From positions 51,828,745 to 51,892,744 of the forward strand of contig CM075102.1 in assembly GCA_037576195.1 (NCBI GenBank): 64,000 bases of DNA, in the 5' to 3' direction. This stretch comes from Phytoseiulus persimilis (taxonomy: Eukaryota; Arthropoda; Arachnida; Mesostigmata; Phytoseiidae). The first letter of the stretch is position 1. Every line of letters begins with the position of its first letter. The notes beneath the pieces are model-generated. The model searched no databases. It was not told the origin of the DNA and saw only the letters and a program-made list of their open reading frames with translations. Below, one piece after another: positions 1-25,160 of the stretch. A program made the translations under genes and the position numbers.

Positions 1-3000
1 TCCGAGACCAATCTGAGCATTACTTTCCAACTCTGGAGGGATGATTCCGGGGGTCAATCTGAGCATTACTTTCCCAACTTGGAGGGGTGATTCCGAGACA
101 AATCTGAGCATTTACTTCCCAACTCTGGAGGGGTGATTCCGGGGTCAATCTGAGCATTTCTTCCCAACTTTGGAGGGGTGATTCCGAGACCAATCTGAGC
201 ATTACTTTCCAACTCTGGAGGGGTGATTCCGGGACCAATCTGAGCATTACTTCCCAACTCTGGAGGGGTGATTCCGAGACCAATCTGAGCATTACTTCCA
301 ACTCTGGAGGGGTGATTCCGGGGTCAATCTGAGCATTTTTCCCAACTCTGGAGGGGTGATTCCGAGACAAATCTGAGCATTACTTCCCAACTCTGGAGGG
401 GTGATTCCGGGGACCAATCTGAGCATTACTTTCCAACTCTGGAGGGGTGATTCGAGACCAATCTGAGCATTACTTTCCAACTCTGGAGGGGTGATTCCGG
501 GGTCAATCTGAGCATTTCTTCCAACTCTGGAGGGGTGATTCCGAGACAATCTGAGCATTACTTTCCAACTCTGGAGGGGTGATTCCGAGACCAATCTGAG
601 CATTACTTTCCAACTCTGGAGGGGTGATTCCGAGACCAATCTGAGCATTACTTCCCAACTCTGGAGGGGTGATTCCGGGGACCAATCTGAGCATTACTTT
701 CCAACTCTGGAGGGGTGATTCCGGGGTCAATCTGAGCATTACTTCCCAACTCTGGAGGGGTGATTCCGAGACCAATCTGAGCATTACTTTCCAACTCTGG
801 AGGGGTGATTCGGGGGCCAATCTGAGCATTACTTCCCAACTCTGGAGGGGTGATTCCGAGACCAATCTGAGCATTACTTTCCAACTCTGGAGGGGTGATT
901 CCGGGGTCCAATCTGAGCATTACTTTCCAACTCTGGAGGGGTGATTCCGAGACCAATCTGAGCATTACTTTCCAAACTCTGGAGGGGTGATTCCGGGGAC
1001 AATCTGAGCATTACTTTCCAACTCTGGAGGGGTGATTCCGAGACCAATCTGAGCATTACTTTCCAACTCTGGAGGGGTGATTCCGGGACCAATCTGAGCA
1101 TTACTTTCCAACTCTGGAGGGGTGATTCCGAGACAAATCTGAGCATTACTTTCCAACTCTGGAGGGGTGATTCCGAGACCAATCTGAGCATTACTTTCCA
1201 ACTCTGGAGGGGTGATTCCGGGACAATCTGAGCATGGAGGGGTGATTCCGAGACCAATCTGAGCATTACTTTCCAACTCTGGAGGGGTGATTCGAGACCA
1301 ATCTGAGCATTACTTTCCAACTCTGGAGGGGTGATTCCGAGACCAATCTGAGCATTACTTTCCAACTCTGGAGGGGTGATTCCGAGACCAATCTGAGCAT
1401 TACTTCCAACTCTGGAGGGGTGATTCCGAGACCAATCTGAGCATTACTTTCCAACTCTGGAGGGGTGATTCCGAGACCAATCTGAGCATTACTTTCCAAC
1501 TCTGGAGGGGTGATTCCGGGAGACCAATCTGAGCATTACTTTCCAACTCTGGAGGGGTGATTCCGAGACCAATCTGAGCATTACTTCCCAACTCTGGAGG
1601 GGTGATTCCGAGACCAATCTGAGCATTACTTTCCAACTCTGGAGGGGTGATTCCGAGACCAATCTGAGCATTACTTTCCAACTCTGGAGGGGTGATTCCG
1701 AGACCAATCTGAGCATTACTTTCCAAACTCTGGAGGGGTGATTCCGAGACCAATCTGAGCATTACTTTCCAACTCTGGAGGGGTGATTCCGAGACCAATC
1801 TGAGCATTACTTTCCAACTCTGGAGGGGTGATTCCGGGGTCCATCTGAGCATTACTTTCCAACTCTGGAGGGGTGATTCCGGGGTCAATCTGAGCATTAC
1901 TTTCCAACTCTGGAGGGGTGATTCCGGGACCAATCTGAGCATTACTTTCCCAACTCTGGAGGGGTGATTCCGAGACAATCTGAGCATTACTTTCCAACTC
2001 TGGAGGGGTGATTCCGAGACCAATCTGAGCATTACTTTCCAAACTCTGGAGGGGTGATTCCGAGACCAATCTGAGCATTACTTTCCAACTCTGGAGGGGT
2101 GATTCCGGGGTCAATCTGAGCATTACTTCCAAACTCTGGAGGGGTGATTCCGAGACCAATCTCTGAGCATTACTTTCCAACTCTGGAGGGGTGATTCCGA
2201 GACCAATCTGAGCATTACTTTCCAACTGGAGGGGGGGATTCGGGGTCCAATCTGAGCATTACTTTTTCAACTCTGGAGGGGTGATTCCGAGACCAATCTG
2301 AGCAATCTGAGCATTACTTTCCAACTCTGGAGGGGTGATTCCGGGGTCCAATCTGAGCATTACTTCCAACTCTGAGGGGGGTGATTCCGAGACCAATCTG
2401 AGCATTACTTTCCAACTCTGGAGGGGTGATTCCGAGACCAATCTGAGCATTACTTTCCAACTCTGGAGGGGTGATTCCGAGACCAATCTGAGCATTACTT
2501 TCCAACTCTGGAGGGGTGATTCCGGGACCAATCTGAGCATTACTTTCCAACTCTGGAGGGGTGATTCCGAGACCAATCTGAGCATTACTTTCCAACTCTG
2601 GAGGGGTGATTCCGAGACCAATCTGAGCATTACTTCCCAACTCTGGAGGGGTGATTCCGGGACCAATCTGAGCATTACTTTCCAACTCTGGAGGGGTGAT
2701 TCCGAGACCAATCTGAGCATTACTTTCCAACTCTGGAGGGGTGATTCCGGGTCAATCTGAGCATTACTTCCCAACTCTGGAGGGGTGATTCCGAGACCAA
2801 TCTGAGCATTACTTTCCAACTCTGGAGGGGTGATTCCGAGACCAATCTGAGCATTACTTTCCAACTCTGGAGGGGTGATTCCGAGACCAATCTGAGCATT
2901 ACTTTCCCAACTCTGGAGGGGTGATTCCGAGGGTCAATCTGAGCATTACTTTCCAACTCTGGAGGGGTGATTCCGAGACCAATCTGAGCATTACTTTCCA

Positions 3001-6000
3001 ACTCTGGAGGGGTGATTCCGGACCAATCTGAGCATTACTTTCCAAACTCTGGAGGGGTGATTCCGGGACCAATCCGGAGCATCAATCTGAGCATTACTTC
3101 CCAACTCTGGAGGGGTGATTCCGAGACCAATCTGAGCATTACTTTCCAACTCTGGAGGGGTGATTCCGAGACCAATCTGAGCATTACTTTCCAACTCTGG
3201 AGGGGTGATTCCGGACCAATCTGAGCATTACTTTCCAACTCTGGAGGGGTGATTCCGAGACCAATCTGAGCATTACTTTCCAACTCTGGAGGGGTGATTC
3301 CCGGGGTCAATCTGAGCATTACTTCCCAACTCTGGAGGGGTGATTTCCGGAGACCAATCTGAGCATTACTTTCCAACTCTGGAGGGGTGATTCCGAGACC
3401 AATCTGAGCATTACTTTCCAACTCTGGAGGGGTGATTCCGAGACCAATCTGAGCATTACTTTCCAACTCTGGAGGGGTGATTCCGGGACCAATCTGAGCA
3501 TTACTTTCCAAACTCTGGAGGGGTGATTCCGGGGTCCAATCTGAGCATTACTTTCCAACTCTGGAGGGGTGATTCCGAGACCAATCTGAGCATTACTTCC
3601 CAACTCTGGAGGGGTGATTCCGAGACCAATCTGAGCATTACTTTCCAACTCTGGAGGGGTGATTCCGGGGACAATCTGAGCATTACTTTCCAACTCTGGA
3701 GGGGTGATTCCGAGACCAATCTGAGCATTACTTTCCAACTCTGGAGGGGTGATTCCGAGACCAATCTGAGCATTACTTCCCAACTCTGGAGGGGTGATTC
3801 CGAGACCAATCTGAGCATTACTTTCCAACTCTGGAGGGGTGATTCCGGGGTCAATCTGAGCATTACTTCCCAACTCTGGAGGGGTGATTCCGAGACCAAT
3901 CTGAGCATTACTTTCCAACTCTGGAGGGGTGATTCCGATTCCGGGGTCAATCTGAGCATTACTTTCCAACTCTGGAGGGGTGATTCCGAGACCAATCTGA
4001 GCATTACTTTCCAACTCTGGAGGGGTGATTCCGGGTCCAATCTGAGCATTACTTTCCAACTCTGGAGGGGTGATTCCGAGACCAATCTGAGCATTACTTC
4101 CCAACTCTGGAGGGGTGATTCCGAGGGTCAATCTGAGCATTACTTTCCAACTCTGGAGGGGTGATTCCGGGACCAATCTGAGCATTACTTTCCAACTCTG
4201 GAGGGGTGATTCCGAGACCAATCTGAGCATTACTTTTTCCAACTCTGGAGGGGTGATTCCGAGACCAATCTGAGCATTACTTTCCAAACTCTGGAGGGGT
4301 GATTCCGAGACCAATCTGAGCATTACTTTCACTCTGGAGGGGTGATTCCGAGACCAATCTGAGCATTACTTTCCAACTCTGGAGGGGTGATTCCGAGACC
4401 AATCTGAGCATTACTTTCCAACTCTGGAGGGGTGATTCCGGGACCAATCTGAGCATTACTTTCCAACTCTGGAGGGGGTGATTCCGAGACCAATCTGAGC
4501 ATTACTTTCCCAACTCTGGAGGGGTGATTCCGGACCAATCTGAGCATTACTTCCCAACTCTGGAGGGGTGATTCCGAGACCAATCTGAGCATTACTTTCC
4601 AACTCTGGAGGGGTGATTCCGGGACCAATCTGAGCATTACTTTCCAACTCTGGAGGGGTGATTCCGAGACCAATCTGAGCATTACTTTCCAACTCTGGAG
4701 GGGTGATTCCGGGGTCCAATCTGAGCATTACTTTCCAACTCTGGAGGGGTGATTCCGGGGTCCAATCTGAGCATTACTTTCCAACTCTGGAGGGGTGATT
4801 CCGAGACCAATCTGAGCATTACTTCCAAACTCTGGAGGGGTGATTCCGAGACCAATCTGAGCATTACTTTCCAACTCTGGAGGGGTGATTCCGGGACCAT
4901 CTGAGCATTACTTTCCCAACTCTGGAGGGGTGATTCCGGGACCAATCTGAGCATTACTTCCCAACTCTGGAGGGGTGATTCCGGGACCAATGAGCATTAC
5001 TTCCAACTCTGGAGGGGTGATTCCGGGACCAATCTGAGCATTACTTCCAACTCTGGAGGGGTGATTCCGGACCAATCTGAGCATTACTTTCCCAACTCTG
5101 GAGGGGTGATTCCGGGGACCAATCTGAGCATTACTTTCCAACTCTGGAGGGGTGATTCCGAGGGTCCAATCTGAGCATTACTTTCCCAACTCTGGAGGGG
5201 TGATTCCGGGGACCAATCTGAGCATTACTTTCCAACTCTGGAGGGGTGATTCCGGGGTCAATCTGAGCATTACTTCCCAACTCTGGAGGGGTGATTCCGG
5301 GGGACCAATCTGAGCATTACTTCCCAACTCTGGAGGGGTGATTCCGGGACCATCTGAGCATACTTTCCAACTCTGGAGGGGTGATTCCGGGACCAATCTG
5401 AGCATTACTTTCCAACTCTGGAGGGGTGATTCCGGGGGTCCAATCTGAGCATTACTTTCCAACTCTGGAGGGGTGATTCCGGGGTCAATCTGAGCATTAC
5501 TTTCCCAACTCTGGAGGGGTGATTCCGGGTCAATCTGAGCATTACTTTCCAACTCTGGAGGGGTGATTCCGAGGTCAATCTGAGCATTACTTTCCAACTC
5601 TGGAGGGGTGATTCCGGGACCAATCTGAGCATTACTTCCAACTCTGGAGGGGTGATTCCGGGAGACCAATCTGAGCATTACTTTCCAACTCTGGAGGGGT
5701 GATTCCGAGACCAATCTGAGCATTACTTTCCAACTCTGGAGGGGTGATTCCGGGACCAATCTGAGCATTACTTCCCAACTCTGGAGGGGTGATTCCGAGA
5801 CCAATCTGAGCATTACTTCCAAACTCTCTGGAGGGGTGATTCCGGGACAATCTGAGCATTACTTTCCAACTCTGGAGGGGTGATTCCGAGACCAATCTGA
5901 GCATTACTTCCCAACTCTGGAGGGGTGATTCCGAGACCAATCTGAGCATTACTTCCAACTCTGGAGGGGTGATTCCGAGACCAATCTGAGCATTACTTTC

Positions 6001-9000
6001 CAACTCTGGAGGGGTGATTCCGAGACCAATCTGAGCATTACTTTCCAACTCTGGAGGGGTGATTCCGAGACCAATCTGAGCATTACTTTCCAACTCTGGA
6101 GGGGTGATTCCGAGACCAATCTGAGCATTACTTCCAACTCTGGAGGGGTGATTCCGGGACCAATCTGAGCATTATTACTTCCAACTCTGGAGGGGTGATT
6201 CCGGACCAATCTGAGCATTACTTCCAACTCTGGAGGGGTGATTCCGGGACCAATCTGAGCATTTCTTCCCAACTGGAGGGGTGATTCCGAGACCAATCTG
6301 AGCATTACTTTCCAACTCTGGAGGGGTGATTCCGGGACCAATCTGAGCATTACTTTCCAACTCTGGAGGGGTGATTCCGAGACCAATCTGAGCATTACTT
6401 ACTTCCAACTCTGGAGGGGTGATTCCGGGACCAATCTGAGCATTACTTTCCAACTCTGGAGGGGTGATTCCGAGACCAATCTGAGCATTACTTTCCAACT
6501 CTGGAGGGGGGATTCCGAGACCAATCTGAGCATTACTTTCCAACTCTGGAGGGGTGATTCCGAGACCAATCTGAGCATTACTTTCCAACTCTGGAGGGAG
6601 GGGTGATTCCGGGGTCAATCTGAGCATTACTTCCCAACTCTGGAGGGGTGATTCCGGGGACCAATCTGAGCATTACTTCCCAACTCTGGAGGGGTGATTC
6701 CGAGGACCAATCTGAGCATTACTTTCCAACTCTGGAGGGGTGATTCCGGGGACCAATCTGAGCATTACTTCCCAAACTCTGGAGGGGTGATTCCGGGTCA
6801 ATCTGAGCATTACTTTCAACTCTGGAGGGGTGATTCCGAGGGTCCAATCTGAGCATTACTTCCAACTCTGGAGGGGTGATTCCGAGACCAATCTGAGCAT
6901 TACTTTCCAACTCTGGAGGGGTGATTCCGGGTCAATCTGAGCATTACTTTCCAACTCTGGAGGGGTGATTCCGAGACCAATCTGAGCATTACTTCCCAAC
7001 TCTGGAGGGGTGATTCCGAGACCAATCTGAGCATTACTTTCCAACTCTGGAGGGGTGATTCCGGGGTCCAATCTGAGCATTACTTTCCCAACTCTGGAGG
7101 GGTGATTCCGAGGGTCAATCTGAGCATTACTTCCAACTCTGGAGGGGTGATTCCGAGAGACCAATCTGAGCATTACTTTCCAACTCTGGAGGGGTGATTC
7201 CGGGACCAATCTGAGCATTACTTTCAACTCTGGAGGGGTGATTCCGGGGTCAATCTGAGCATTACTTTCCAACTCTGGAGGGGTGATTCCGGGGCAATCT
7301 GAGCATTACTTCCAACTCTGGAGGGGTGATGATTCCGAGACAATCTGAGCATTACTTTCCAACTCTGGAGGGGTGATTCCGGGACCAATCTGAGCATTAT
7401 TCCCAACTCTGGAGGGGTGATTCCGAGACCAATCTGAGCATTACTTTCCAACTCTGGAGGGGTGATTCCGAGACCAATCTGAGCATTACTTCCCAACTCT
7501 GGAGGGGTGATTCCGGGACCATCTGAGCATTACTTTCCAACTCTGGAGGGGTGATTCCGAGACCAATCTGAGCATTACTTTCCACTCTGGAGGGGGTGAT
7601 TCCGGGTCCAATCTGAGCATTACTTTCCAACTCTGGAGGGGTGATTCCGGGACCAATCTGAGCATTACTTCCCAACTCTGGAGGGGTGATTCCGAGACCA
7701 ATCTGAGCATTACTTCCCAACTCTGGAGGGGTGATTCCGGGGACAATCTGAGCATTACTTTCCAACTCTGGAGGGGTGATTCCGGGGGACCAATCTGAGC
7801 ATTACTTCCAACTCTGGAGGGGTGATTCCGAGACCAATCTGAGCATTACTTTCCAACTCTGGAGGGGTGATTCCGAGACCAATCTGAGCATTACTTTCCA
7901 ACTCTGGAGGGGTGATTCCGGGGTCAATCTGAGCATTACTTCCCAAAACTCTGGAGGGGTGATTCCGGGGTCACCAATCTGAGCATTACTTCCCAACTCT
8001 GGAGGGGGGTGATTCCGAGACCAATCTGAGCATTACTTTCCAAACTCTGGAGGGGTGATTCCGAGACCAATCTGAGCATTACTTCCCAACTCTGGAGGGG
8101 TGATTCCGGGGTCCAATCTGAGCATTACTTTCAAACTCTGGAGGGGTGATGATCCGAGGGTCCAATCTGAGCATTACTTTCCAACTCTGGAGGGGTGATG
8201 ATTCCGAGACCAATCTGAGCATTACTTCCCAACTTTCCAACTCTGGAGGGGTGATTCCGGGGCCAATCTGAGCATTACTTTTCCAACTCTGGAGGGGTGA
8301 TTCCGAGACCAATCTGAGCATTACTTTCCAACTCTGGAGGGGTGATTCCGGGGTCAATCTGAGCATTACTTCCCAACTCTGGAGGGTGATTCCGGGGTCA
8401 ATCTGAGCATTACTTCCCAACTCTGGAGGGGTGATTCCGAGACCAATCTGAGCATTACTTTCCAACTCTGGAGGGGGGGTGATTCCGAGACCAATCTGAG
8501 CATTACTTTCCAACTCTGGAGGGGTGATTCCGGACCAATCTGAGCATTACTTTCCAACTCTGGAGGGGTGATTCCGAGACCAATCTGAGCATTACTTTCC
8601 AACTCTGGAGGGTGATTCCGAGACCAATCTGAGCATTACTTCCAACTCTGGAGGGGTGATTCCGGGGACCAATCTGAGCATTACTTCCAACTCTGGAGGG
8701 GTGATTCCGGACCAATCTGAGCATTACTTCCCACTCTGGAGAGGGGTGATTCCGAGACCAATCTGAGCATTACTTTCCAACTCTGGAGGGGTGATTCCGA
8801 GACCAATCTGAGCATTACTTTCCAACTCTGGAGGGGTGATTCCGGGACCAATCTGAGCATTATTTCCAACTCTGGAGGGGTGATTCCGAGACAAATCTGA
8901 GCATTACTTTCCAACTCTGGAGGGGTGATTCCGGAGACCAATCTGAGCATTACTTTCCAACTCTGGAGGGGTGATTCCGAGACAATCTGAGCAACTTTCC

Positions 9001-12000
9001 AACTCTGGAGGGGTGATTCCGAGACCAATCTGAGCATTACTTCCAACTCTGGAGGGGTGATTCCGAGACCAATCTGAGCATTACTTCCCAACTCTGGAGG
9101 GGTGATTCCGGGGCCAATCTGAGCATTACTTTCCAACTCTGGAGGGGTGATTCCGAGACCAATCTGAGCATTACTTTCCAAACTCTGGAGGGGTGATTCC
9201 GAGACCAATCTGAGCATTACTTTCCAACTCTGGAGGGGTGATTCCGGGGTCAATCTGAGCATTACTTTCCAACTCTGGAGGGGTGATTCCGGGACCAATC
9301 TGAGCATTACTTTCCAACTCTGGAGGGGTGATTCCGAGACCAATCTGAGCATTACTTTCCAACTCTGGAGGGGTGATTCCGAGACCAATCTGAGCATTAC
9401 TTTCCAACTCTGGAGGGGTGATTCCGGGGTCAATCTGAGCATTACTTCCAACTCTGGAGGGGTGATTCCGGGACCAATCTGAGCATTACTTTCCAACCTG
9501 GAGGGGTGATTCCGAGACAATCTGAGCATTACTTTCCAACTCTGGAGGGGTGATTCCGAGACCAATCTGAGCATTATTACTTTCCAACTCTGGAGGGGTG
9601 ATTCCGAGACCAATCTGAGCATTACTTTCCAACTCTGGAGGGGTGATTCCGAGACCAATCTGAGCATTACTTCCAACTCTGGAGGGGTGATTCCGGGTCC
9701 AATCTGAGCATTACTTCCAACTCTGGAGGGGTGATTCCGAGACCAATCTGAGCATTACTTTCCAACTCTGGAGGGGTGATTCCGAGGGCCAATCTGAGCA
9801 TTACTTTCCAACTCTGGAGGGGTGATTCCGGGGACCAATCTGAGCATTACTTTCCAACTCTGGAGGGGTGATTCCGGGACCAATCTGAGCATTACTTTCC
9901 CAACTCTGGAGGGGTGATTCCGGGGTCAATCTGAGCATTACTTTCCAACTCTGGAGGGGTGATTCCGAGACCAATCTGAGCATTACTTTCCAACCTGGAG
10001 GGGTGATTCCGAGACCAATCTGAGCATTACTTTCCAACTCTGGAGGGGTGATTCCGGGACCAATCTGAGCATTACTTTCCAACTCTGGAGGGGTGATTCC
10101 GAGGGGTCCAATCTGAGCATTACTTTCCAACTCTGGAGGGGTGATTCCGGGACCAATCTGAGCATTACTTTCCCAACTCTGGAGGGGTGATTCCGGGACC
10201 AATCTGAGCATTACTTTCCAACTCTGGAGGGGTGATTCCGGACCAATCTGAGCATTACTTTCCAACTCTGGAGGGGTGATTCCGGGGTCAATCTGAGCAT
10301 TACTTTCCAACTCTGGAGGGGTGATTCCGAGGGACCAATCTGAGCATTACTTTCCAAACTCTGGAGGGGTGATTCCGGGACAATCTGAGCATTACTCCAA
10401 CTCTGGAGGGGTGATTCCGAGACCAATCTGAGCATTACTTCCCAACTCTGGAGGGGTGATTCCGAGACCAATCTGAGCATTACTTCCAACTCTGGGAGGG
10501 GGTGATTTCCGGGACCAATCTGAGCATTACTTTCCAACTCTGGAGGGGTGATTCCGGACCAATCTGAGCATTACTTCCCAACTCTGGAGGGGTGATTCCG
10601 AGACCAATCTGAGCATTACTTTCCAACTCTGGAGGGGTGATTCCGAGACCAATCTGAGCATTACTTTCCAACTCTGGAGGGGTGATTTCCGGGACCAATC
10701 TGAGCATTACTTTCCAACTCTGGAGGGGTGATTCCGGAGACAATCTGAGCATACTTCCAACTCTGGAGGGGTGATTCCGGGACCAATCTGAGCATTACTT
10801 CCCAACTCTGGAGGGGTGATTCCGAGACCAATCTGAGCATTACTTTCCAACTCTGGAGGGGTGATTCCGAGACCAATCTGAGCATTACTTTCCAACTCTG
10901 GAGGGGTGATGATTCGGGACCAATCTGAGCATTACTTTCCAACTCTGGAGGGGTGATTCCGGGGTCAATCTGAGCATTACTTCCAACTCTGGAGGGGTGA
11001 TTCCGAGACCAATCTGAGCATTACTTTCCAACTCTGGAGGGGTGATTCCGAGACCAATCTGAGCATTACTTTCCAACTCTGGAGGGGTGATTCCGGGGTC
11101 AATCTGAGCATTACTTTCCAACTCTGGAGGGGTGATTCCGGGACCAATCTGAGCATTACTTTTTCCCAACTCTGGAGGGGTGATTCCGAGACCAATCTGA
11201 GCATTACTTTCCAACTCTGGAGGGGTGATTCCGAGACCAATCTGAGCATTACTTTCCAACTCTGGAGGGGTGATTCCGGGGTCAATCTGAGCATTACTTT
11301 CCAACTCTGGAGGGGTGATTCCGAGACCAATCTGAGCATTACTTCCAACTCTGGAGGGGTGATTCCGGGACCAATCTGAGCATTACTTTCCAACTCTGGA
11401 GGGGTGATTCCGAGACCAATCTGAGCATTACTTTCCAACTCTGGAGGGGTGATTCCGAGACCAATCTGAGCATTACTTTCCAACTCTGGAGGGGTGATTC
11501 CGGGGTCAATCTGAGCATTACTTCCAACTCTGGAGGGGTGATTCCGGACCAATCTGAGCATTACTTTCCAACTCTGGAGGGGTGATTCCGAGACCAATCT
11601 GAGCATTACTTTCCAACTCTGGAGGGGTGATTCCGAGACCAATCTGAGCATTACTTTCCAACTCTGGAGGGGTGATTCCGGGACCAATCTGAGCATTACT
11701 TTCCAACTCTGGAGGGGTGATTCCGAGACCAATCTGAGCATTACTTTCCAACTCTGGAGGGGTGATTCCGGGGACAATCTGAGCATTACTTTCCCAACTC
11801 TGGAGGGGTGATTCCGAGACCAATCTGAGCATTACTTTCCAAACTCTGGAGGGGTGATTCCGGGGACCAATCTGAGCATTACTTTCCAACTCTGGAGGGG
11901 TGATTCCGGGGTCCAATCTGAGCATTACTTTCCAACTCTGGAGGGGTGATTCCGGGACCAATCTGAGCATTACTTCCCAACTCTGGAGGGGTGATTCCGG

Positions 12001-14212
12001 GACCAATCTGAGCATTACTTCCCAACTCTGGAGGGGTGATTCCGAGACCAATCTGAGCATTACTTCCCAACTCTGGAGGGGTGATTCCGGGACCAATCTG
12101 AGCATTACTTCCCAACTCTGGAGGGGTGATTCCGAGACCAATCTGAGCATTACTTTCCAACTCTGGAGGGGTGATTCCGAGACCAATCTGAGCATTACTT
12201 TCCAACTCTGGAGGGGTGATTCCGAGACCAATCTGAGCATTACTTCCCAACTCTGGAGGGGTGATTCCGGGACCAATCTGAGCATTACTTTCCAACTCTG
12301 GAGGGGTGATTCCGGGGTCCAATCTGAGCATTACTTCCCAACTCTGGAGGGGTGATTCCGAGGGTCCATCTGAGCATTACTTCCCAACTCTGGAGGGGTG
12401 ATTCCGGACCAATCTGAGCATTACTTTCCAACTCTGGAGGGGTGATTCCGGGACCAATCTGAGCATTACTTCCCAACTCTGGAGGGGTGATTCGAGACCA
12501 ATCTGAGCATTACTTTCCAACTCTGGAGGGGTGATTCCGAGACCAATCTGAGCATTACTTTCCAACTCTGGAGGGGTGATTCCGAGACCAATCTGAGCAT
12601 TACTTTCCAACTCTGGAGGGGTGATTCCGAGACCAATCTGAGCATTACTTCCCAACTCTGGAGGGGTGATTCCGAGACCAATCTGAGCATTACTTTCCAA
12701 CTCTGGAGGGGTGATTCCGAGACCAATCTGAGCATTACTTTCCAACTCTGGAGGGGTGATTCCGGGGACCAATCTGAGCATTACTTCCCAACTCTGGAGG
12801 GTGATTCCGAGACCAATCTGAGCATTACTTTCCAACTCTGGAGGGGTGATTCCGAGACCAATCTGAGCATTACTTCCCAACTCTGGAGGGGTGATTCCGG
12901 GACCAATCTGAGCATTACTTTCCAACTCTGGAGGGGTGATTCCGAGACCAATCTGAGCATTACTTTCCAACTCTGGAGGGGTGATTCCGGGACCAATCTG
13001 AGCATTACTTCCAACTCTGGAGGGGTGATTCCGGGGTCAATCTGAGCATTACTTTCCCAACTCTGGAGGGGTGATTCCGAGACCAATCTGAGCATTACTT
13101 TCCAACGCTGGAGGGGTGATTCCGAGACCAATCTGAGCATTACTTTCCAACTCTGGAGGGGTGATTCCGAGACCAATCTGAGCATTACTTTCCAACTCTG
13201 GAGGGGTGATTCCGGGACCAATCTGAGCATTACTTCCCAACTCTGGAGGGGTGATTCCGAGACCAATCTGAGCATTACTTTCCAACTCTGGAGGGGTGAT
13301 TCCGAGACCAATCTGAGCATTACTTTCCAACTCTGGAGGGGTGATTCCGAGACCAATCTGAGCATTACTTCCCAACTCTGGAGGGGTGATTCCGAGACCA
13401 ATCTGAGCATTACTTTCCAACTCTGGAGGGGTGATTCCGAGACCAATCTGAGCATTACTTTCCAACTCTGGAGGGGTGATTCCGGGGTCAATCTGAGCAT
13501 TTCTTCCCACTTTGGAGGGGTGATTCCCGAGACAAATCTGAGCATTACTTTCCAACTCTGGAGGGGTGATTCCGAGACCAATCTGAGCATTACTTTCCAA
13601 CTCTGGAGGGGTGATTCCGGGGTCAATCTGAGCATTTTTCCAACTTTGGAGGGGTGATTCCGAGACCAATCTGAGCATTACTTTCCAACTGGAGGGGTGA
13701 TTCCGAGACCAATCTGAGCATTACTTCCAAACTCTGGAGGGGTGATTCCGGACCAATCTGAGCATTACTTTCCAACTCTGGAGGGGTGATTCCGGGACCA
13801 ATCTGAGCATTTTCTTCCAACTCTGGAGGGGTGATTCCGGGGTCAATCTGAGCATTTACTTTCCAACTTGGAGGGGTGATTCCGGGGTCAATCTGAGCAT
13901 TTCTTCCCAACTCTGGAGGGGTGATTCCGGGGACCAATCTGAGCATTACTTCCCAACTCTGGAGGGGGATTCCGGGGTCAATCTGAGCATTTCTTCCCCA
14001 ACTCTGGAGGGGTGATTCCGAGACCAATCTGAGCATTACTTTCCAACTCTGGAGGGGTGATTCGAGACCAATCTGAGCATTACTTTCCCAACGCTGGAGG
14101 GGTGATTCCGAGACCAATCTGAGAATTACTTCCCAACTCTGGAGGGGTGATTCCGGGGCCAATCTGAGCATTACTTCCCAACTCTGGAGGGGTGATTTCG
14201 GGCTCAATCTGA
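1..14212 (+). repeat. 45-bp satellite array 1 (about 315 units)
   Basis: Head-to-tail tandem repeat of a 45-bp unit that begins GATTCCGAGACCAATCTGAG, continues with CATTACTTTCCAACTCTGGA and ends GGGGT. The left edge lies outside the window. Frequent variants are GAGACC versus GGGGTC or GGGACC near the start of the unit, and TTTCC versus TTCCC in the middle. Single-base insertions and deletions, mostly in short homopolymer runs, are scattered throughout and break the reading frames every few units. Units become irregular toward the right edge (about 13,500-14,212). Because 45 is a multiple of 3, the array yields many artificial open frames on both strands. None is a gene. Confidence 0.97.
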
Positions 14213-14345
14213 CCATATTTTCCGAAATCAGAATGCTGACCCAGTGAAGGGAGAGAAAAGTGCCTCGATGGCAGGGAGCGCCGTCCAACCGCGCGCAGCG
14301 CGGGCGACTCCAGTCGGCCAAAGGCCGGCTGGTTATAGATAGTAA
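1..14345 (+). mobile_element. Helitron-like satellite-bearing element, copy 1 (3' part)
   Basis: The array is followed at 14,200-14,345 by a module that recurs after other arrays in the window. It has a last degenerate unit ending in a GACCATA-type motif, then a stretch reading AGTGCCTCGAT, then a stem-loop at 14,312-14,330 (AGTCGGCC, loop AAA, GGCCGGCT) followed by GGTTATA. The 5' module lies outside the window. Assignment to the Helitron/Helentron group is inference from the layout. No transposase is present here. Confidence 0.6.
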
Positions 14346-15650: not shown

Positions 15651-18600
15651 AAATTGATTTCCCGAATCGGCCATGTGATCGGCGCTCCCCTGGTAGCTCA
15701 CACGCTCACATTCAAGCAGGCGCCCCCGAAGCATTTCGGTCAATTGATGTGTTTCCTAGAAAAAGAGCTGTTCGCACCGTTTCAAGCTACATGCACCATC
15801 AAATCAATGCAGCGGTGAGTAGCGTTGGGAACGGTCTTGCTCCTTCGGTCTATCGAGGGACACCAACGGAAAATATCCCATGAGAGAGTCTCCCGTTCGG
15901 GGAAACGATTAGCGCATTCTCAAACATGCAGGAGTCGTGATCTCATCGAAGAAGCCTGCTGGGACGAATTTTCTCCCTTCATCATGGAATCTCGGGAGAA
16001 CGGTCAAGTGCTCTCCGAACGCGCATTGTACCACTTTTTTCGAGTATTCTGCTTCCTCGCCGAACTCAAAACTGATTCCATCTCAGGGGCTGTGCACGTC
16101 ATCATTTCTCCAGAAGAGGTAGGATCCGAGATCTCAAGGGCTTATGCTATGGACTCCCTTCCTTGAATACTCTGATTATCTTCCTCGATCTGGGAGTCGA
16201 TCCTTCACGACTATCTGTTACGAGAACACCGTAATTGTAAACTTTATCACTAAACTCGGAGTCGAACCATCGAGAACGTAAGCCGCACCATGTGCTTAAC
16301 AGAAAACTCCCGGGTCACGGAAAGAGTTTTTGAGGCGAATTCTCTCATCGGAAGTCTCGTCTTGAGCGCGAGCGAAGACAGGCATCGATCCTTCATTTCA
16401 AGCGAAGATCCATCCCATCGGGCGCCCTCCGCGAGTTTCCCAAAGAGAAAGAGATATGCTGCGGTGACTGCTCGACAAGTGTCGCGTTTAACACGGCGCC
16501 CGAGCTCCTTGACAGAGGGAAACCGCGTGCGAAAGAACCGAACGCGCAGAACTTGGGAGAACTTCTCAGAAGTGGAGCGACATCGCGAGTCATCTTCCCC
16601 ATCTGACCCAACAGCTCCAGGAGAGGGATCGTGTTGCGGCCCCACTGTTTCTCTCTGAACAGTATCGGGTCGTCTCCGAGTGTTTTGAGCCTGGACCCAG
16701 AAAACTTACCTACATCGTCAGCTTCAGCGATCGAGGACATGTGGCGGCGAGTCGACGTCGTATGACCATATCTCTTTTCACAGGCTGAAGAATTCTGTCG
16801 ATCGTTCGTACAATCTCTCGGAGAACCGTGGGACGAGAGCATAGTCGACAGCGACCTCTTCTCCAAGTCAATGGATTTCGAGAGTCTTTTGAAGCTCGTG
16901 GAAACTTGTTTGGCAGCGGGTCGAGATCCGCGCGGTCTCACTGAGGCAGCAGCGGAGCTGTTCGACGTGTTCATCGGAGATGTCATCAAGAAGGGACCGG
17001 TCAAGCGCCGTGTGTTCGGTCTATGGTGGGATTACGTGATGGTGGTACGCCCGCATTTCTTGCAGTTCTACAACAACAGAGGCAAGAGAAAGGTGATTCT
17101 CTTGAATGGTGTCGATTGCGCGTCTCTGGGGTCGACCGCGATATCCTGTTTTTGGTTGGCGTGCTCATTTTCCGCTTCTCCCTTCCTTCAGGCAAGCGAA
17201 TTCCAACTTACTTCCAGCTCGTACGTTAGAAGCGCGTCGAGCTTATCGGGATCGACTTCAAACCTTTTCTCCTTGTCCGGTTTCGGTAATACGAGTGGTC
17301 GTGGTCATAAGCTCCTGATTCTGACCGAAGCAACGCAGGATGAGGTAACGGCTCAGATTCGGTTGAATTCGCGTGACCATACTCGGAATGATGAAACTTT
17401 GTTCCCGGAACAGGGCTCTCCACATGAAATGGGGCACTCCGTAGAATTGTCGCTGTTTTGCTGCGAGCGAGATAGACAGCTCGTTAGGTAGTAGAACCAC
17501 CGCAAACGCTAGGAGCGGCGACACAGAACCTGCTCCCCATGACGCCTTAGACTTGCAAAGCTTTGGAGCTAGATTGTTGATTCTCAACGGTTCGATTCTT
17601 CAGTTTTTTTTGTCACGCGCCCCGAGTCTCTGAGTTATGAGAATGGAATGCTTGCAATTATCGTGAGCAGTGTTCTCAAGGTAGGACCCCCTCTGGGGCT
17701 CTCTAGCTCTCACAGGCCTTTCGCAATACAAACTTCTGCGGAATCCACTTTTTGGACACCTGTTCCTGGGTCCTTGAAGTGCCTCAGGATCAAGTCTAGA
17801 ATTCCTGAAAACCTGAGCCAGGTATTACTTGGAATACTCAGCTCAGAATGAGACCCGATGAAGCTGGTCAGCTCACTCGCAGCATCTTCTGTGGTGTCCC
17901 AGATTCGATCGCCCAAGCGACAACGCCATTTCAACTTGAGCAATGAGAGCCTTCGTTATCGATTCTCCTATGATCCCTCCACTAGTATGATGGGAGACGA
18001 GTTGATGAAGGTTGGTTGTGTTTCCAGATAGGCGCGAAAATCATAGAGATAAGCGCGCCTTGCTATAAATCGAAGCTCCAGTGGATCAACGCAATCCAGT
18101 GTGCAATCGCTCACTCTCATTCCCAGCGGAGGTATCAGAGCTATCTCGCCAGCCAGAGAAGAATCCTCAGGTGATTGGAAATGAATACGACCCATGACCA
18201 GCATTCAGTTCCAGCATTTGAATGAGCACGTGTGAAAGGCGAGATCAGTGCTGGAATGAGAACTGTCCTGGTTTGACACATGAGCTGATTTTCACATTCT
18301 TCCACAAGGCACGAGCAGCGAGCGAGGGAACACACCAAGAAGCAAGAATTGGAACGATCCATTTGCGTACGAATCAAACAAGAGTTGTCTCCGCTCGAGA
18401 GAGAAATCGATTCACTGAAGCAAAAAGTAGACGAGGAGTCTAGAGCGAAGCGCGACGAAGAAATCGTCCGTGGGTAAGCTTCGTGATTTTCGTTGTGTAA
18501 CGCATCTCACTGAGGCTGGCCCCCTACGAGAATCTGTTTTCCAGTGCGCAATCACGTCTCTTGATGGAGGAATGGGAAAAAATGGAGAAGCTTCAGCGTG

Positions 18601-18728
18601 AGCTCGAGGCAACAAAACTGGAATTGAAGCAAGTCAGAAGTGGGACCGCGCTACAGAGACGGGCGCGGTCGCAACGATCGCCGCTCTACAGAGCTCAGTC
18701 TTGGTCTGATTTGAGCGGATCTCAATGA
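15651..18728 (+). CDS. SWAP70/DEF6-family PH-domain protein (incompletely resolved)
   Basis: Exons read in phase: 15,651-15,814, 15,932-16,118, 16,784 to about 17,147, 17,192-17,220, then 18,309-18,473 and 18,545-18,728 (stop TGA). The second exon carries an EF-hand-like helical stretch with LSERALYHFF and ending IISPEE, matching the family's LSNQDAFRLW...VPDEVE region. The third starts the PH domain, with FIGDVIKKG and MVVRPHFLQFYNN corresponding to the family's LILDVLKQG and FVLKPNIISYY. The C-terminal coiled coil has KRDEEIVRGAQSRLLMEE, very close to DEF6 RRDEESVRIAQTRLLEEE. Family members are Rac/Rho guanine-nucleotide exchange factors acting at membranes and actin. The N-terminal exon and the link between PH domain and final coiled coil (17,220-18,309, normally about 190 residues) were not found, so the gene is either divergent there or decayed. 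The donor near 17,147 (GTTTTT) is weak. Confidence 0.78.
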
Positions 18729-20283
18729 GCCGTGACCCGCGTGTCTCCTTTGGGCAACGTTCTTCGAATCAGATGATTTCGACATGACGAGCTACCAAAA
18801 CTACTGTTGAACAAACGACTAAGGAGCTCAGCTCCTAATCATTGCGACCGAAATCTCTTTTCTTCCGAGGCATCTTGGATCTTGGCGCAGATGGCGCAGG
18901 ACTAGACTCCGAAAAATTATTCTCATTTTCATTTCCCCGGTTCAATACAGGGTCCAAGTTCATCGATTTCTGCTTCCATAGAGTTTCTTCCCCTCGAGAA
19001 TGCCATGCTGACCTCGTGGATCCGGGCTTCTCGATCATAAGAACACAGGATCGCCTAGCAATCAACGGATGGAAAATGAAACGGCCTTTGTGACCGGGAT
19101 GGGCTTCTCCTCTCTGTTGTCGCTCCATGCAGTCGGAAATGGGAAAGCCGAATCTTCGCCAGCTAGACTGCATTGAGAACAGTAACGAAGGACTGTGTCG
19201 AGATCGGTCTGGAAGATTGAATGGAGTTATCAAGTCGAATCTGCTATCAGCTGCCACGAGGGCCCACCCGACTTTTCCAACTTCTACAACGAATTCTATC
19301 GACCGAGCTGTCAGGTTTGGGGTTGGGCCATGGAACTACGCGGCGGAGGGAGAGTCGGCGGAGATCGAGGAAGGAGGGAATAGGTTTCGGCAAGGAACCC
19401 CCTTGAGCGCTCCGGCTTGTAATTCGGCGGTCGCCTCGGGAAAGAGCCATTGCATGAGGAATGTTCCTGGAGAGCAGTTCCTAACGCACCGAGTGGATCT
19501 ATCGGGAGATTGGTGTAGATGTTTCCCCGGAGACAACCCGTGGAGTCCGGAGCTCTTTTGGAACGAAAGCCTCAAACTCAGACAGAATGCCGTTCTGCGC
19601 TTGGTAACTCGAGCAGACGTTAGCGAAATCCCATTGCTTGGATTTTCCCTGGGCACATGTGGCGCGTGCCTTATCCTTTAGGAACCGCATTGGCGGACTC
19701 ATGGACGAGATGGTCAGAACTAGAGGTGCCAATTAGGTGCCAATGTCACAATGACTCGAGTGAGGCATGCATGTCCATGCAACAAAAAGCCCATTCCGAA
19801 CTTGACCAAGCTTCTTCCCGATGTCACATATGACTCGAACAAGTCCTCGAGCAGACACATACGTGGCGAACAATCTCGAACTCCAGAACGTGCATTGACA
19901 AGCGTTAACCTATGTTAGTGAAATGGATGCGTCATGAATATGTCATGACCGTCCATGCGTCAAATCAGAGATGTATTCGCCGGGAAATCAGAATTTTCCC
20001 TTATTCCGCCATGGAAGTCTTTAGATGTCGAGCGCCTCCGTTGTTAAGCTCTGAAATACGCTGTGACGGACCGTGACGGCAGGTGACGGCTCTGTAGAAC
20101 GCCGTCGCGAGACTTTTATGTGAGAAGAAAACAGTGCCTTTTCAGTCTACGACTGGAGTTATCGGTTCGTAGGCTTACGCGATATGGATTGAGTTTTCTG
20201 CGTAAGATCTGTTTCTCTTATTCCTGCACGGACTCGAGTTCTTTGAGTCAGCTTCTGGAAATGTTCGTCGATTTTGGTCAAGT
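18729..20283. other. unassigned stretch with coding-like frames
   Basis: A minus-strand frame ending at 18,835 has an acidic then basic C-terminus (SSPAPSAPRSKMPRKKRD) that looks like a last exon, but upstream exons were not identified. A plus-strand open frame of 184 codons at 19,127-19,681 has no recognisable domain. From 19,700 to 20,283 nothing is recognisable. Confidence 0.25.
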
Positions 20284-20329
20284 TCACGGGGGACTATGAA
20301 CAACGGTCAGGGCTGGAGCAAAATCGCGG

Positions 20330-20700
20330 GATTCGCGATTTTCGGCCTCCTCAGCGATTTCTTTAGTTCCGGCACGGACTGCGATAACTGAGAACGTTCG
20401 AATCACTGCTGTAGCTAACTTAATCTTAGAGTATATTCCCCGGAGGATGACTTGGCGAAGGCACAGCTTAGAATGTTTTTGAGCTAGACCAAGAACTTCA
20501 ATAGCTTCAGTCACCCTGTAGACTTCTAGCTTACCTCAGACCAACGCTTGCCGAAATTTTCTCAGATAGCGTTGATTTCCGCAGCGTTCCATTCGCTAGT
20601 GTTGACGCGGAACGGTCTCCCAGCATGTACTCGGAACTATTGAGAGATTACCGCTTTAGCATCGCTGAGCCAAATTTTATCGCCTAAAACGTGGTTCATC
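20330..20700 (-). pseudogene. possible BEL/Pao retrotransposon remnant
   Basis: Reading the minus strand downward from about 20,680, a frame contains IWLSDAKAVISQ, one stop, then FRVHAGRPFRVNTSEW and an EI pair. This resembles the WTDSKAVL...FVANRVxEI pattern of the Pao-type RNase H region. A further frame at 20,330-20,500 contains YSKIKLATAVIRTF, resembling the following RLLRVTAYVLRF segment. Order and strand agree, but similarity is weak and stops interrupt it. It could be chance. Confidence 0.33.
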
Positions 20701-21084
20701 AGAACGCCGGTATGCCCCAGAGCTTAAATACAGATTAAGTCCAGCGCAAGCCTAAATCATCATATTTTGGGTAATTTCCGTCCTCATCGTCTAAGATGGA
20801 CGAATTTCCAGGCTGTGATAGGAACTCTCTAGCATTGCTCCTGCTGTGTTCAAATGAAGAGAACTGTGTGCTTCTGCATCATCACATCACGTGCTCATTT
20901 TTGATCCCATCTTCCTTCACGATTGACGAGCGATTTACTCAGTTTGCGCGATTTTCTGATCGGTCACAGCGACTCGCCCGCCACATTCGCGTTTTTCGTC
21001 GGCACGACAAATTTGCAGCCCCAGCAATGGCTATCACTTAACATTTGAATGAAAAATGGGTGGCGGATGGTAGAATAATCGATT

Positions 21085-21195
21085 CCACCCGATTTGACCG
21101 GGGGCCCGATTTCGAGCAGAGTCCCGATTTGAGCGGCGACCCGATTCGGGCGATGACCCGATTTAAGCGAAGGCCCTATTCGAGCGGGAGCTACC
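21085..21195 (-). repeat. degenerate ~17-bp tandem repeat
   Basis: Six imperfect units of about 17 bp, read on the minus strand as variants of CGCTCAAATCGGG followed by 3-5 variable bases. A further related stretch lies at 21,715-21,780 on the plus strand (CGCTCAAATCGGGCC, CGCTCAAATG), so the block exists in two orientations about 550 bp apart. Confidence 0.6.
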
Positions 21196-21199
21196 AGCA

Positions 21200-22079
21200 C
21201 TTGTGGTTTTCTGGCTCGCGCTAGAGTTGGGTCTCGGCACCTTTTGCTGGCGATCATGACTGAAGGAGAGCTGCAGCCCTCGTTTCTTGAGGCTCTTGTG
21301 GACGAAATCAATGATGAGAATGCGGTGCAATCGCGCAGATCTGTTCTTCGTTCGGATAAAGTGCTGCTCCCGGCATCGACGAAACCCTATATTCTCTTGG
21401 TACAATTGTTTAAGGGAGTTCGAAACACCGATCGCTACTCTGTGGGCTTGCGCCTCGCTGTGGAACTGGCTCGCGGAGCACTTCCATTCTCGCCAGTGTT
21501 CGGGGCCTAAATGGCGACGACGCAAAGAAGCAGAATTGTCAAAAATGAGCGAAGGCTGCTTGCTAGTCAAGTACACGAAGCTCAGCGGCATACTTGTTCC
21601 GCGCTCCGGAAAAACGCGCGCACGCGTACCTGCCTGACTCTACATGGAACCGATGCATTCGGAAGGAACGAAGCGAATTAAGCTCGAGCCACACCAGGGT
21701 CTCCCGCGCCGCTGATGACCGCTCAAATCGGGCCTTCGCTGGAATTGTGCATTCGCTCCAATGGGACTCCGCTCAAATGTAGCGGCATCAAAATCATCGA
21801 TGTAGCTCGATTGAAGCTCCTTGCTGGAGACAAACGGCGTCCTAGGAGCGGAGGTGTGATAATACATCAGGAAGTTCCAGGGTCACCATGGTCGCGGAGT
21901 CGTTCACAACCCAGCTAAGACATAAGACAGTGGTTGCGGCGATGCCTGCGTGACCGATGGACGCGAAACAATCGTTGCGGCCGTTTACATCAGGTCCGGT
22001 ACAGGAGTCGTGAGATCCACGGAATTCCTACACAAGCCTACGTTAAAGGCAGCATGTCTATCAAGCAGTGTTGGGCAAA
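21200..22079. other. no gene recognised
   Basis: Plus-strand frames of 88 and 116 codons overlap at 21,244-21,637 without recognisable domains. The stretch ends at the 5' module of the satellite-bearing element. Confidence 0.3.
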
Positions 22080-22217
22080 TATATAAAAATCCAGGGTCTG
22101 TTTGTTTATTTGTTTGTTTGTATGTTTGTTTGTCCTCAATAGGCTCCTCCGGTATTGATCGGATCGACTTGGAACAAACTGCATGATGTCGGGCGGCTCA
22201 CCGGCAAGGACATAGGC

Positions 22218-24960
22218 TTTCCAACTTTAGAGGGGTGATTCCGGGACCGTTCTGGCCATTACTTTCCAACTCTAGAGGGGTGATTCCGGGACCATTCTGG
22301 CCATTACTCTCCAACTCTAGAGGGGTGATTCCGGGACCATTCTGGCCATTACTCTCCAACTCTAGAGGGGTGATTCCGGGACCATTCTGGCCATTACTCT
22401 CCAACTCTAGAGGGGTGATTCCGGGACCATTCTGGCCATTACTCTCCAACTCTAGAGGGGTGATTCCGGGACCATTCTGGCCATTACTTTCCAACTCTAG
22501 AGGGGTGATTCCGGGACCATTCTGGCCATTACTCTCCAACTCTAGAGGGGTGATTCCGGGACCATTCTGGCCATTACTCTCCAACTCTAGAGGGGTGATT
22601 CCGGGACCGTTCTGGCCATTACTTTCCAACTCTAGAGGGGTGATTCCGGGACCATTCTGGCCATTACTCTCCAACTCTAGAGGGGTGTTTCCGGGACCAT
22701 TCTGGCCATTACTCTCCAACTCTAGAGGGGTGATTCCGGGACCATTCTGGCCATTACTCTCCAACTCTAGAGGGGTGTTTCCGGGACCATTCTGGCCATT
22801 ACTCTCCAACTCTAGAGGGGTGATTCCGGGACCATTCTGGCCATTACTCTCCAACTCTAGAGGGGTGTTTCCGGGACCATTCTGGCCATTACTCTCCAAC
22901 TCTAGAGGGGTGATTCCGGGACCATTCTGGCCATTACTTTCCAACTCTAGAGGGGTGATTCCGGGACCATTCTGGCCATTACTTTCCAACTCTAGAGGGG
23001 TGATTCCGGGACCATTCTGGCCATTACTCTCCAACTCTAGAGGGGTGATTCCGGGACCATTCTGGCCATTACTTTCCAACTCTAGAGGGGTGATTCCGGG
23101 ACCATTCTGGCCATTACTTTCCAACTCTAGAGGGGTGATTCCGGGACCATTCTGGCCATTACTCTCCAACTCTAGAGGGGTGATTCCGGGACCATTCTGG
23201 CCATTACTCTCCAACTCTAGAGGGGTGATTCCGGGACCATTCTGGCCATTACTCTCCAACTCTAGAGGGGTGATTCCGGGACCATTCTGGCCATTACTTT
23301 CCAACTCTAGAGGGGTGATTCCGGGACCATTCTGGCCATTACTCTCCAACTCTAGAGGGGTGTTTCCGGGACCATTCTGGCCATTACTTTCCAACTCTAG
23401 AGGGGTGATTCCGGGACCGTTCTGGCCATTACTTTCCAACTCTAGAGGGGTGATTCCGGGACCATTCTGGCCATTACTCTCCAACTCTAGAGGGGTGATT
23501 CCGGGACCGTTCTGGCCATTACTTTCCAACTCTAGAGGGGTGATTCCGGGACCGTTCTGGCCATTACTTTCCAACTCTAGAGGGGTGATTCCGGGACCAT
23601 TCTGGCCATTACTCTCCAACTCTAGAGGGGTGATTCCGGGACCGTTCTGGCCATTACTCTCCAACTCTAGAGGGGTGATTCCGGGACCATTCTGGCCATT
23701 ACTTTCCAACTCTAGAGGGGTGATTCCGGGACCGTTCTGGCCATTACTTTCCAACTCTAGAGGGGTGATTCCGGGACCATTCTGGCCATTACTCTCCAAC
23801 TCTAGAGGGGTGGTTCCGGGACCGTTCTGGCCATTACTTTCCAACCCTAGAGGGGTGATTCCGGGACCATTCTGGCCATTACTCTCCAACTCTAGAGGGG
23901 TGATTCCGGGACCATTCTGGCCATTACTTTCCAACTCTAGAGGGGTGATTCCGGGACCGTTCTGGCCATTACTTTCCAACTCTAGAGGGGTGATTCCGGG
24001 ACCATTCTGGCCATTACTCTCCAACTCTAGAGGGGTGATTCCGGGACCATTCTGGCCATTACTTTCCAACTCTGGAGGGGTGATTCCGAGACCAATCTGG
24101 CCAGTACTTTCCAACTCTAGAGGGGTGATTCCGGGACCATTCTGGCCATTACTTTCCAACTCTAGAGGGGTGATTCCGGGACCATTCTGGCCATTACTCT
24201 CCAACTCTAGAGGGGTGATTCCGGGACCGTTCTGGTCATTACTTTCCAACTCTAGAGGGGTGATTCCGGGACCATTCTGGCCATTACTCTCCAACTCTAG
24301 AGGGGTGATTCCGGGACCATTCTGGCCATTACTTTCCAACTCTAGAGGGGTGATTCCGGGACCGTTCTGGCCATTACTTTCCAACTCTAGAGGGGTGATT
24401 CCGGGACCGTTCTGGCCATTACTTTCCAACTCTAGAGGGGTGATTCCGGGACCATTCTGGCCATTACTTTCCAACTCTAGAGGGGTGATTCCGGGACCAT
24501 TCTGGCCATTTCTTTCCAACTCTAGAGGGGTGATTCCGGGACCATTCTGGCCATTACTTCCCAACTCTAGAGGGGTGATTCCGGGACCATTCTGGCCATT
24601 ACTTTCCAACTCTAGAGGGGTGATTCCGGGACCATTCTGGCCATTACTTTCCAACTCTAGAGAGGTGATTCCGGGACCATTCTGGCCATTACTTTCCAAC
24701 TCTAGAGGGGTGATTCCGGGACCAATCTGGCCATTACTTTCCAACTCTGGAGGGGTGATTCCGAGACCAATCTGGCCATTACTTTCCAACTCTAGAGGGG
24801 TGATTCCGGGACCATTCTGGCCATTACTTTCCAACTCTGGAGGGGTGATTCCGGGACCAATCTGACTATCACTTTCCAAGTCTGGAGGGGTGATCTCGAG
24901 ACATATCTACCCACACTTTTCAAAACCTGGAGGGGTGATTCCGGGACCAATCTGACCATA
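22218..24960 (+). repeat. 45-bp satellite array 2 (about 61 units)
   Basis: The unit differs from array 1 at fixed positions: it begins GATTCCGGGACCATTCTGGC, then CATTACTCTCCAACTCTAGA, ending GGGGT. Length is exactly 45 bp for nearly the whole array, so the frame never shifts. The 15-residue translation is stop-free on the plus strand (22,235-24,865) and on the minus strand (24,879-22,198). A few units carry array-1-like bases (24,070-24,115 and 24,745-24,785: CTGGAGGGGT, GAGACCAATCTGG). The last two or three units are degenerate and approach the ancestral form with TGACCATACTTCTC. Confidence 0.97.
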
Positions 24961-25132
24961 CTTCTCGAAACCATGATGCTGACCAAGTGAAGAAAGAGGA
25001 AAGTGCCTCGATTCCAGGTCAGAATCCTATCGGGAATCGGTGGCCACTCCCGGAGGTCTCATGACACTACATGTAAGGCAATGTGTGTCTGTCAGCAGTA
25101 GAATCCCGAAGCAAGGGACGGGTCGGCCAGTG

Positions 25133-25153
25133 TAGTCGGCCGAAGGCCGGCTA
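25133..25153 (+). other. terminal stem-loop of satellite-bearing element
   Basis: Arms TAGTCGGCC and GGCCGGCTA pair over 9 bp (one T-G) around a GAA loop. Equivalent hairpins stand at the 3' ends of the other forward copies: 14,312-14,330, 53,128-53,147, about 53,873-53,892 and 41,543-41,561. Position at the extreme 3' end and the AGT that often follows are what one expects of a Helitron-type terminator. Confidence 0.7.
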
Positions 25154-25160
25154 GTGTATC

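Follow-up and report, generated by a model that had tools for sequence, protein, structure and literature searches.

How satellites arise from transposons and travel with them is an open question, on which several rolling-circle elements, here compared through portions of the papers cited, already bear. Rice has Mothra, a non-autonomous Helitron of the canonical kind in which tandem repeats form blocs (PMC4683698), and the oyster Cg_HINE/pearl elements carry a microsatellite and a satellite-like array between two flanks. We analysed a stretch of 64,000 nucleotides of the Phytoseiulus persimilis genome (hereafter the window; C2:51,828,745-51,892,744 of a 181-Mb genome whose large contigs are designated C1-C4, L-numbers denoting stretches fetched from the genome), in which arrays of a 45-bp satellite lie between a 5' module (m5) and a 3' module (m3) with a terminal hairpin. 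It is highly probable that these belong to a canonical Helitron family with an internal 45-bp array (ends 5'-TC...CTAG-3', A^T target left unduplicated), whose autonomous form probably consists of m5, array and gene.

In the sources consulted, the nearest known system in class is rice Mothra and the nearest in satellite behaviour is oyster Cg_HINE. Mothra has TC/CTAG ends, an A^T target, internal tandem repeats and related mother and autonomous families, like the present family, but its authors propose that the repeats were acquired by the non-autonomous element (PMC4683698), whereas here gene-bearing copies also have the array, and the arrays here reach tens to hundreds of units. Cg_HINE/pearl shares the plan of flank, microsatellite, satellite-like array and flank with palindrome, together with genome-wide dispersal, but is of the Helentron class, with oligo-T targets and units of 140-180 bp that mostly number up to 5 and at most 29, and its authors could relate no autonomous partner to it, according to the portion used (PMC7492417). 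DINE-1/HINE and Helentrons likewise have internal tandem repeats in some copies and an autonomous partner sharing their ends, but the endonuclease, the T-rich insertion and the subterminal inverted repeats are theirs (PMC4067079). Helibat1/Helraiser agrees in TC/CTAG ends, A^T insertion, a Rep-helicase of similar size, a hairpin, a head-to-tail circle junction and an AT-rich target that is strongest on the 3' side, but its hairpin lies 11 nt from the end, and the portion of the paper used mentions neither a satellite nor a positioned ATAAA (PMC4778049). Plant centromeric Helitron arrays (Xiong et al. 2016, via PMC12628747, in part) have several 5' heads with a single 3' end, as here, although a nested structure of the present family (L035) suggests another route, namely termination at an inner hairpin. 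No description of an autonomous Helitron with a satellite, or of an ATAAA target at +7, was found in the literature searched by title and start of abstract.

Ends, insertion site and class

The family begins with TCTATATATATAAAAATCCAGG and terminates with GTCGGCCGAAGGCCGGCTAG. Across the genome the base after the CTAG end was T in 290 cases and another base in one, and the base preceding the 22-base 5' end was A in 183, G in 43, T in 15 and C in 7 of 248 cases. In the range where both end listings give places, 7 of 17 G-preceded 5' ends abut an exact 3' end (CTAG|TC), and 7 of the 8 whose flank was read come after a 3' end. Two sets of paralogous empty sites locate the insertion point directly: the site of the L059 copy is split at CCCATGTA^TGTATCATAAAAATCGG and is unbroken in L095, L098 and L100, and the inner copy of L035 interrupts CCTATACA^TCTATCATAAAAATCG, a site unbroken in L052. 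In both sets the element lies between A and T and nothing has been duplicated, as the first-pass annotation of this DNA had anticipated. The target of L059 is a dispersed repeat with TATCATAAAAATCGGCGTGGGACAG (L094-L100; 11 exact places), which also borders a copy in the window.

The 5' TC end, the 3' CTRR end (CTAG or CTGG; CCAG in one old window copy), the A^T insertion without target duplication and the presence of Rep and a PIF1-type helicase in one protein are those of canonical Helitrons. On its ends, target and protein we file the family as a variant canonical Helitron; the hairpin is present and only its position differs, being terminal with a stem that includes CTA of CTAG. The characters separating Helentrons from Helitrons were taken from the portion of PMC4067079 used, which places the canonical hairpin ~11 nt upstream of the 3' end. 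The idea of a rolling-circle, Helitron-like element carrying the satellite has thus been borne out, whereas the filing near Helentron-derived DINE-1/HINE elements, which accompanied it in the first-pass annotation, has to be given up. A Helentron/HINE (DINE-1-like) element would have the same general plan, with a 4-bp microsatellite in a conserved 5' part, tandem repeats in the centre and a 3' palindrome, but we consider it very improbable, because insertion is A^T and not T-T or T-rich, the ends are TC/CTAG, the Rep frame reads VEWQKRGLPHAH (motif GLPHAH) and not the Helentron form of Rep motif 2 with S between G and P, and no Helentron endonuclease domain was detected in the 1,682-codon Rep-helicase frame described below (Pfam, E 0.001). 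Subterminal inverted repeats were not obvious by eye.

Modules and 45-bp arrays in the genome and the window

The 5'-module set comprised the 41 best matches (40 of 529 candidates being scored), of which 30 were examined: 27 in fetched stretches reaching ~3-4.5 kb downstream, the window copy and two in L031. The 5' module runs on into a 45-bp array in 29 of these 30. Among the 27 fetched modules, 18 reach a 3' module, with module-to-module spans of 6 to 63 units, six have arrays that run past the end of the stretch, and three are without a 3' module. Approached from the other side, the genome contains 290 occurrences of the 21-base 3' end but 0 of its reversed control, which rules out chance; at least 3.6 units lie directly upstream of 16 of the 19 fetched 3' ends (of 290), one of the others having 0.8 unit and two none. 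The pairing of modules around arrays supposed in the first-pass annotation is thus supported, and, judged by this order, 5' module, 45-bp array and 3' module are one mobile unit in the copies read, so that an element that moves also spreads satellite blocks around the genome.

Arrays in the window were detected with Tandem Repeats Finder (TRF) and modules with BLAST; the features found, together with one element of L031, are listed below.

1..14216 (+; TRF array 1-14,223): 45-bp satellite array, ~316 units in the window, within an element of the second subtype
14223..14332 (+): 3' module of the second subtype with terminal hairpin, ending CTGG, then T
22080..22217 (+): 5' module (m5), first bases of the TC end missing
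22217..24963 (+): 45-bp array of 61 units (TRF 61.1), mostly private variants, homogenised in place
24960..25154 (+; BLAST module 24,960-25,160): 3' module (m3) with terminal hairpin, ending CTAG, then T
25155..25206 (+): right flank, ~52 bp common to the target repeat of L059 (TGTATCATAAAAATCGG...)
29025..29450 (-): decayed 45-bp units (TRF 1.9 copies, BLAST 1.2 units)
41205..41575 (+): apparent decayed second-subtype copy, weak match
52685..53149 (+): short complete element with TC 5' module, 3 units and 3' module ending CCAG
53150..53892 (+): diverged element following the previous one head to tail (CCAG|TC), ending CTAG
L031 6222..7483 (-): element with m5 and a short 3' end, without array, with pieces of a Tc-like transposase gene inside

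Both programs confirmed the common order of 5' module, 45-bp units and 3' module that had been noticed at 22,080-25,160 and 52,688-53,154. The former copy starts with GGGCAAATATATAAAAATCC where A|TCTATATATATAAAAATCC is expected, the first bases of the 5' end being absent; in the latter, BLAST places the 5' module at 52,691-52,810 (82%) and the 3' module at 52,951-53,150 (86%), with a 3-unit array at 52,808-52,950 (TRF 3.0 units at 52,815-52,950). The left-edge array begins 368 bp to the left of the window (C2:51,828,377), counts ~324 units altogether and is preceded by what appears by eye to be a truncated 5' module of the second subtype. That a 3' module closes this array, as the first-pass annotation stated, is correct, but the module is of the second subtype, ends with CTGG at 14,332 and matches the module at 24,960 over 53 bp at 83% (BLAST). 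The 322 units extracted from it comprise 101 distinct sequences, and repeated runs are only short. As for the three older copies proposed earlier, the one at 53,155-53,900 is real (53,150-53,892) and separate from the element at 52,685-53,149, to which it is joined at CCAG|TC; the one at 41,205-41,575 is weak, with a BLAST match to the 3' module of 82% over merely 40 bp; and 29,025-29,450 had no BLAST match to either module. The 61-unit array (22198-24879) is open on both strands for nearly 900 codons because 45 is divisible by 3 and the unit is free of stops in those frames; there is no evidence of a gene.

A 26-base unit core occurs 18,699 times genome-wide and is exact in 665 of 2,071 extracted units; a rough estimate is ~58,000 units or ~2.6 Mb, which gives the order of magnitude only, because the extracted units stem from the best-matching copies. 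The ~324-unit array of the window sits 0.17-0.18 Mb from the end of C2, and the satellite may be enriched at chromosome ends. Very long arrays in such places (this one, and unit cores at C1 26-31 kb) would be expected if recombination had spread a centromeric or subtelomeric satellite and the modules flanked it by chance; we regard that explanation of the family as extremely improbable in view of the pairing, the exact ends, the dispersed insertions and the empty sites, while it may apply to part of the largest arrays. Among the matches listed, dense unit cores lie near the start of C1, at C1:25,825-31,565 and C1:428,949-438,147, and a (TTAGG)n-like run lies beside the L049 copy.

Gene-bearing copies

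The Helitron_like_N domain had 101 matches in the genome, the best 20 of which were compared. On C3, one Rep-helicase family retains an intact frame that runs for 1,682 codons from stop to stop (1,671 from the first methionine), in which Pfam recognises Helitron_like_N, PIF1 helicase, Pif1 2B, N-terminal STPR repeats and, weakly, REP_ORF2-G2P. The 3' end of this gene family has the same terminal hairpin and CTAG as the satellite elements, and its 97-bp 5' end is homologous to theirs (score 56 versus a maximum of 35 in 1,000 shuffles). It is a candidate for the autonomous partner, of the kind that the first-pass annotation had predicted, a Rep/helicase element sharing the ends. Six copies were read upstream of the gene, namely two in tandem on C3, those at C3:24.16 Mb and C3:38.53 Mb, and two on C4 (a seventh, L025, lies outside the sample). 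The 45-bp array is found upstream of the gene in all six, and m5 precedes it in four, the other two stretches beginning inside the array. Because the enzyme gene lies behind the same satellite in every copy read, which differs from the known systems, the array is most likely a component of the autonomous element as well.

In four gene copies a 3' end of the second subtype persists internally and abuts TCATAAAA. The exact 28-base start of the gene part occurs four times in the genome with CTGG before each occurrence; in the two other copies the array is fused directly to the gene part and the junction is deleted. In one C4 gene copy, TC follows the flank ...CACGAATGGA and the 3' junction is CTAG|TTA; the hairpin end of this copy is somewhat longer and its frame is split. 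We infer from these structures that a satellite element and a Rep/helicase element fused in tandem long ago and came to move as a single unit, possibly because a 3' end was read through, as has been described for Helraiser (PMC4778049, in the portion used), and that array and gene are likely to move together.

On another reading of the same structures there are two distinct Helitrons: one is non-autonomous and bears the satellite, the other has the Rep/helicase gene, starts at TCATAAAA and often has the first in front of it, so that the array would lie outside the autonomous element. We judge this unlikely. The internal CTGG|TC junction does resemble a complete 3' end beside a 5' end, and elements of this family tend to land beside other Helitron 5' ends. 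However, the junction recurs with a duplicated ATGCTGA word at C3:24.16 Mb, where the start of the gene part is only 88% identical; the exact start always follows CTGG; the two fused copies have lost the junction; the last 6 units before it are identical on C3 and C4; and the C4 unit starts at TC after a unique flank. A common origin of the C3 and C4 gene copies from a single composite that already contained the nested element was also considered and rejected: of the 33 and 50 units of the nested arrays only 4 are shared, which suggests that each landed independently at one and the same internal site. The nested elements thus do not serve as proof of a copied composite, and for this reason we lowered our confidence in the fused element and raised that in two Helitrons.

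Several further observations weigh against the fused, satellite-bearing Helitron that we prefer. The gene-bearing copies have only ~27 bp of the m3 end in common with the satellite elements; the internal junction is present in four of the six, and the gene part could be a mere neighbour of satellite elements; and apart from the last 6 units the outer arrays before the junction on C3 and C4 are not shared, just as the nested elements before the gene differ. In the satellite elements, a 3' module is missing from the stretch read in 3 of 27, a clear array is lacking at 3 of 19 three-prime ends, T or C precedes 22 of 248 five-prime ends, and the palindrome is not at the canonical position ~11 nt from the end. 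The second 5' module of L031, moreover, is followed not by an array but by pieces of a Tc-like gene that look as if they had been captured; one piece has two weak Pfam helix-turn-helix matches (one just over the cut-off) and the other none.

With the preferred structure, the autonomous form would most likely be m5, array, Rep/helicase gene, terminal 3' hairpin and CTAG, and the non-autonomous form m5, array, m3 and CTAG. The Rep domain would nick at the 5' TC, strand displacement would proceed through the array until the terminal hairpin signalled the end, and the copied strand, array included, would enter the target between A and T, in many cases at a place that has ATAA 7 bases downstream. 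The arrays could later gain or lose blocks of units, with a few homogenising in place, and large ones such as that of 324 units may come from later block gain or homogenisation. While the ends, the target, the empty sites, the pairing, the common unit order and the position of the gene beside the array are shown by the sequence, these enzymatic steps, the joint movement of gene and array, the expansion process and a present activity of the family are inferences.

Some other Rep genes were met in the same comparison. The start of the intact frame (C3:~250.6-249.9 kb) consists of 69-bp tandem repeats coding for 23-residue STPR-type repeats, and in a second Rep family (L010) the N-terminus is likewise repetitive but different. 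The Rep element of L017 (C2:45.17 Mb) was rejected as a partner; it belongs to another Rep family with ~65% DNA identity to L012, has no 45-bp units between its likely 5' end and the gene, and merely abuts an element of the satellite family. In L027 an array of ~21 units lies between two pieces of a decayed Rep frame of another family.

Array histories, target sites and nested copies

Unit-by-unit array histories, taken together with exact empty sites, allow copying with the element to be distinguished from later growth. The L058 copy on C2 and the nested copy on C4 have 49 of 50 units in common and in order, and the inner copy of L035 shares 38 of 44 units with L059 (99.6% of bases) in different flanks; long arrays have therefore been copied with the element. 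Block differences are found near the 3' side, with 16 units in L043 versus 2 in L058, and 17 in L050, whose stretch is incomplete, versus 6 in L058; a C1 pair of 36 versus 51 units reflects truncation by a second copy and not growth. Over 47 arrays the mean unit identity was 0.870 within and 0.849 between arrays, and most units were nearest to their own array in 4 arrays, where in-place homogenisation is clear, and nearest to another copy in 17, the remainder being ties or mixed. The 61-unit array of the window is one of the four (0.947 within and 0.845 between, with the closest match of 90% of its units found in the array itself). By these comparisons inheritance dominates, and local turnover is clear only in some arrays. 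The simple history proposed in the first-pass annotation, in which a few units expand in place to hundreds, was rejected because arrays of 44 and 50 units transpose collinearly, while its in-place component survives in 4 of the 47.

For the target, we collected 36 independent right flanks (64 three-prime ends were seen, 47 of them unique, and family-internal and near-identical flanks were dropped). From +7 to +11 these have A 72%, T 69%, A 69%, A 67% and A 58%, and ATAAA is present between +5 and +16 in 15 of the 36, whereas four windows of equal size farther from the end contain none. Of the 290 exact 3' ends, 122 have ATAA precisely at +7 and 0 have it at +12, the one control offset; the 122 include repeated contexts (nested CTATC sites and a run of ATCTC sites on C2), and there are 56 different five-base contexts among 100 listed cases. 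Because of its fixed position, the motif opens the choice of target by a Helitron Rep protein to direct testing. The motif is similar, not equal, to the element's own 5' end and matches an internal site, TCTATCATAAAAATC, at which nested copies sit on C3, on C4 and in L035. A target motif resembling the element's own 5' region could explain both the repeated landing at one internal site and the head-to-tail stacking, and landing at the A|TC junction of another copy would yield CTAG|TC stacks.

As an explanation of the stacks only, and compatible with the Helitron family proposed above, they might instead be rolling-circle concatemers of one event, since CTAG|TC is the junction of Helraiser circles in the portion of PMC4778049 used, and one of six tandem pairs is identical in the 5' cores. 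We think this unlikely. Partners can belong to different families, and in five of the six pairs they are not unusually alike, and successive landing therefore fits better. More than one 5' module (two or three) precedes the array in 11 of 27 stretches, one of which scored four hits because a module was split, and L035 displays the full nested structure. Such multi-headed copies would arise when transposition starts at an outer TC and stops at an inner hairpin; the alternative is rolling-circle amplification of truncated templates, as in plants (PMC12628747, in part).

Taking array, target and nesting together, we tentatively put forward a broader scheme, which we hold possible at less than even confidence. 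An autonomous Helitron would keep the array as a working 5' part and pick targets imitating its own 5' region (A^T with ATAAA at +7), its copies would land on the 5' ends of others or on the internal 5'-like site and so stack and nest, and termination at the first hairpin would yield multi-headed copies, one enzyme building both the dispersed arrays and the long satellite near chromosome ends.

At C2:6.2-6.6 Mb, at least 12 three-prime ends have the same right context ATCTC, with decayed Rep copies in the same stretch; this cluster is perhaps a local amplification. In the window, the open frames at 30605-31549 (+) and 50203-50901 (-) match Nop53 and a rhodopsin-type receptor, respectively, and ordinary genes therefore lie between the satellite elements.

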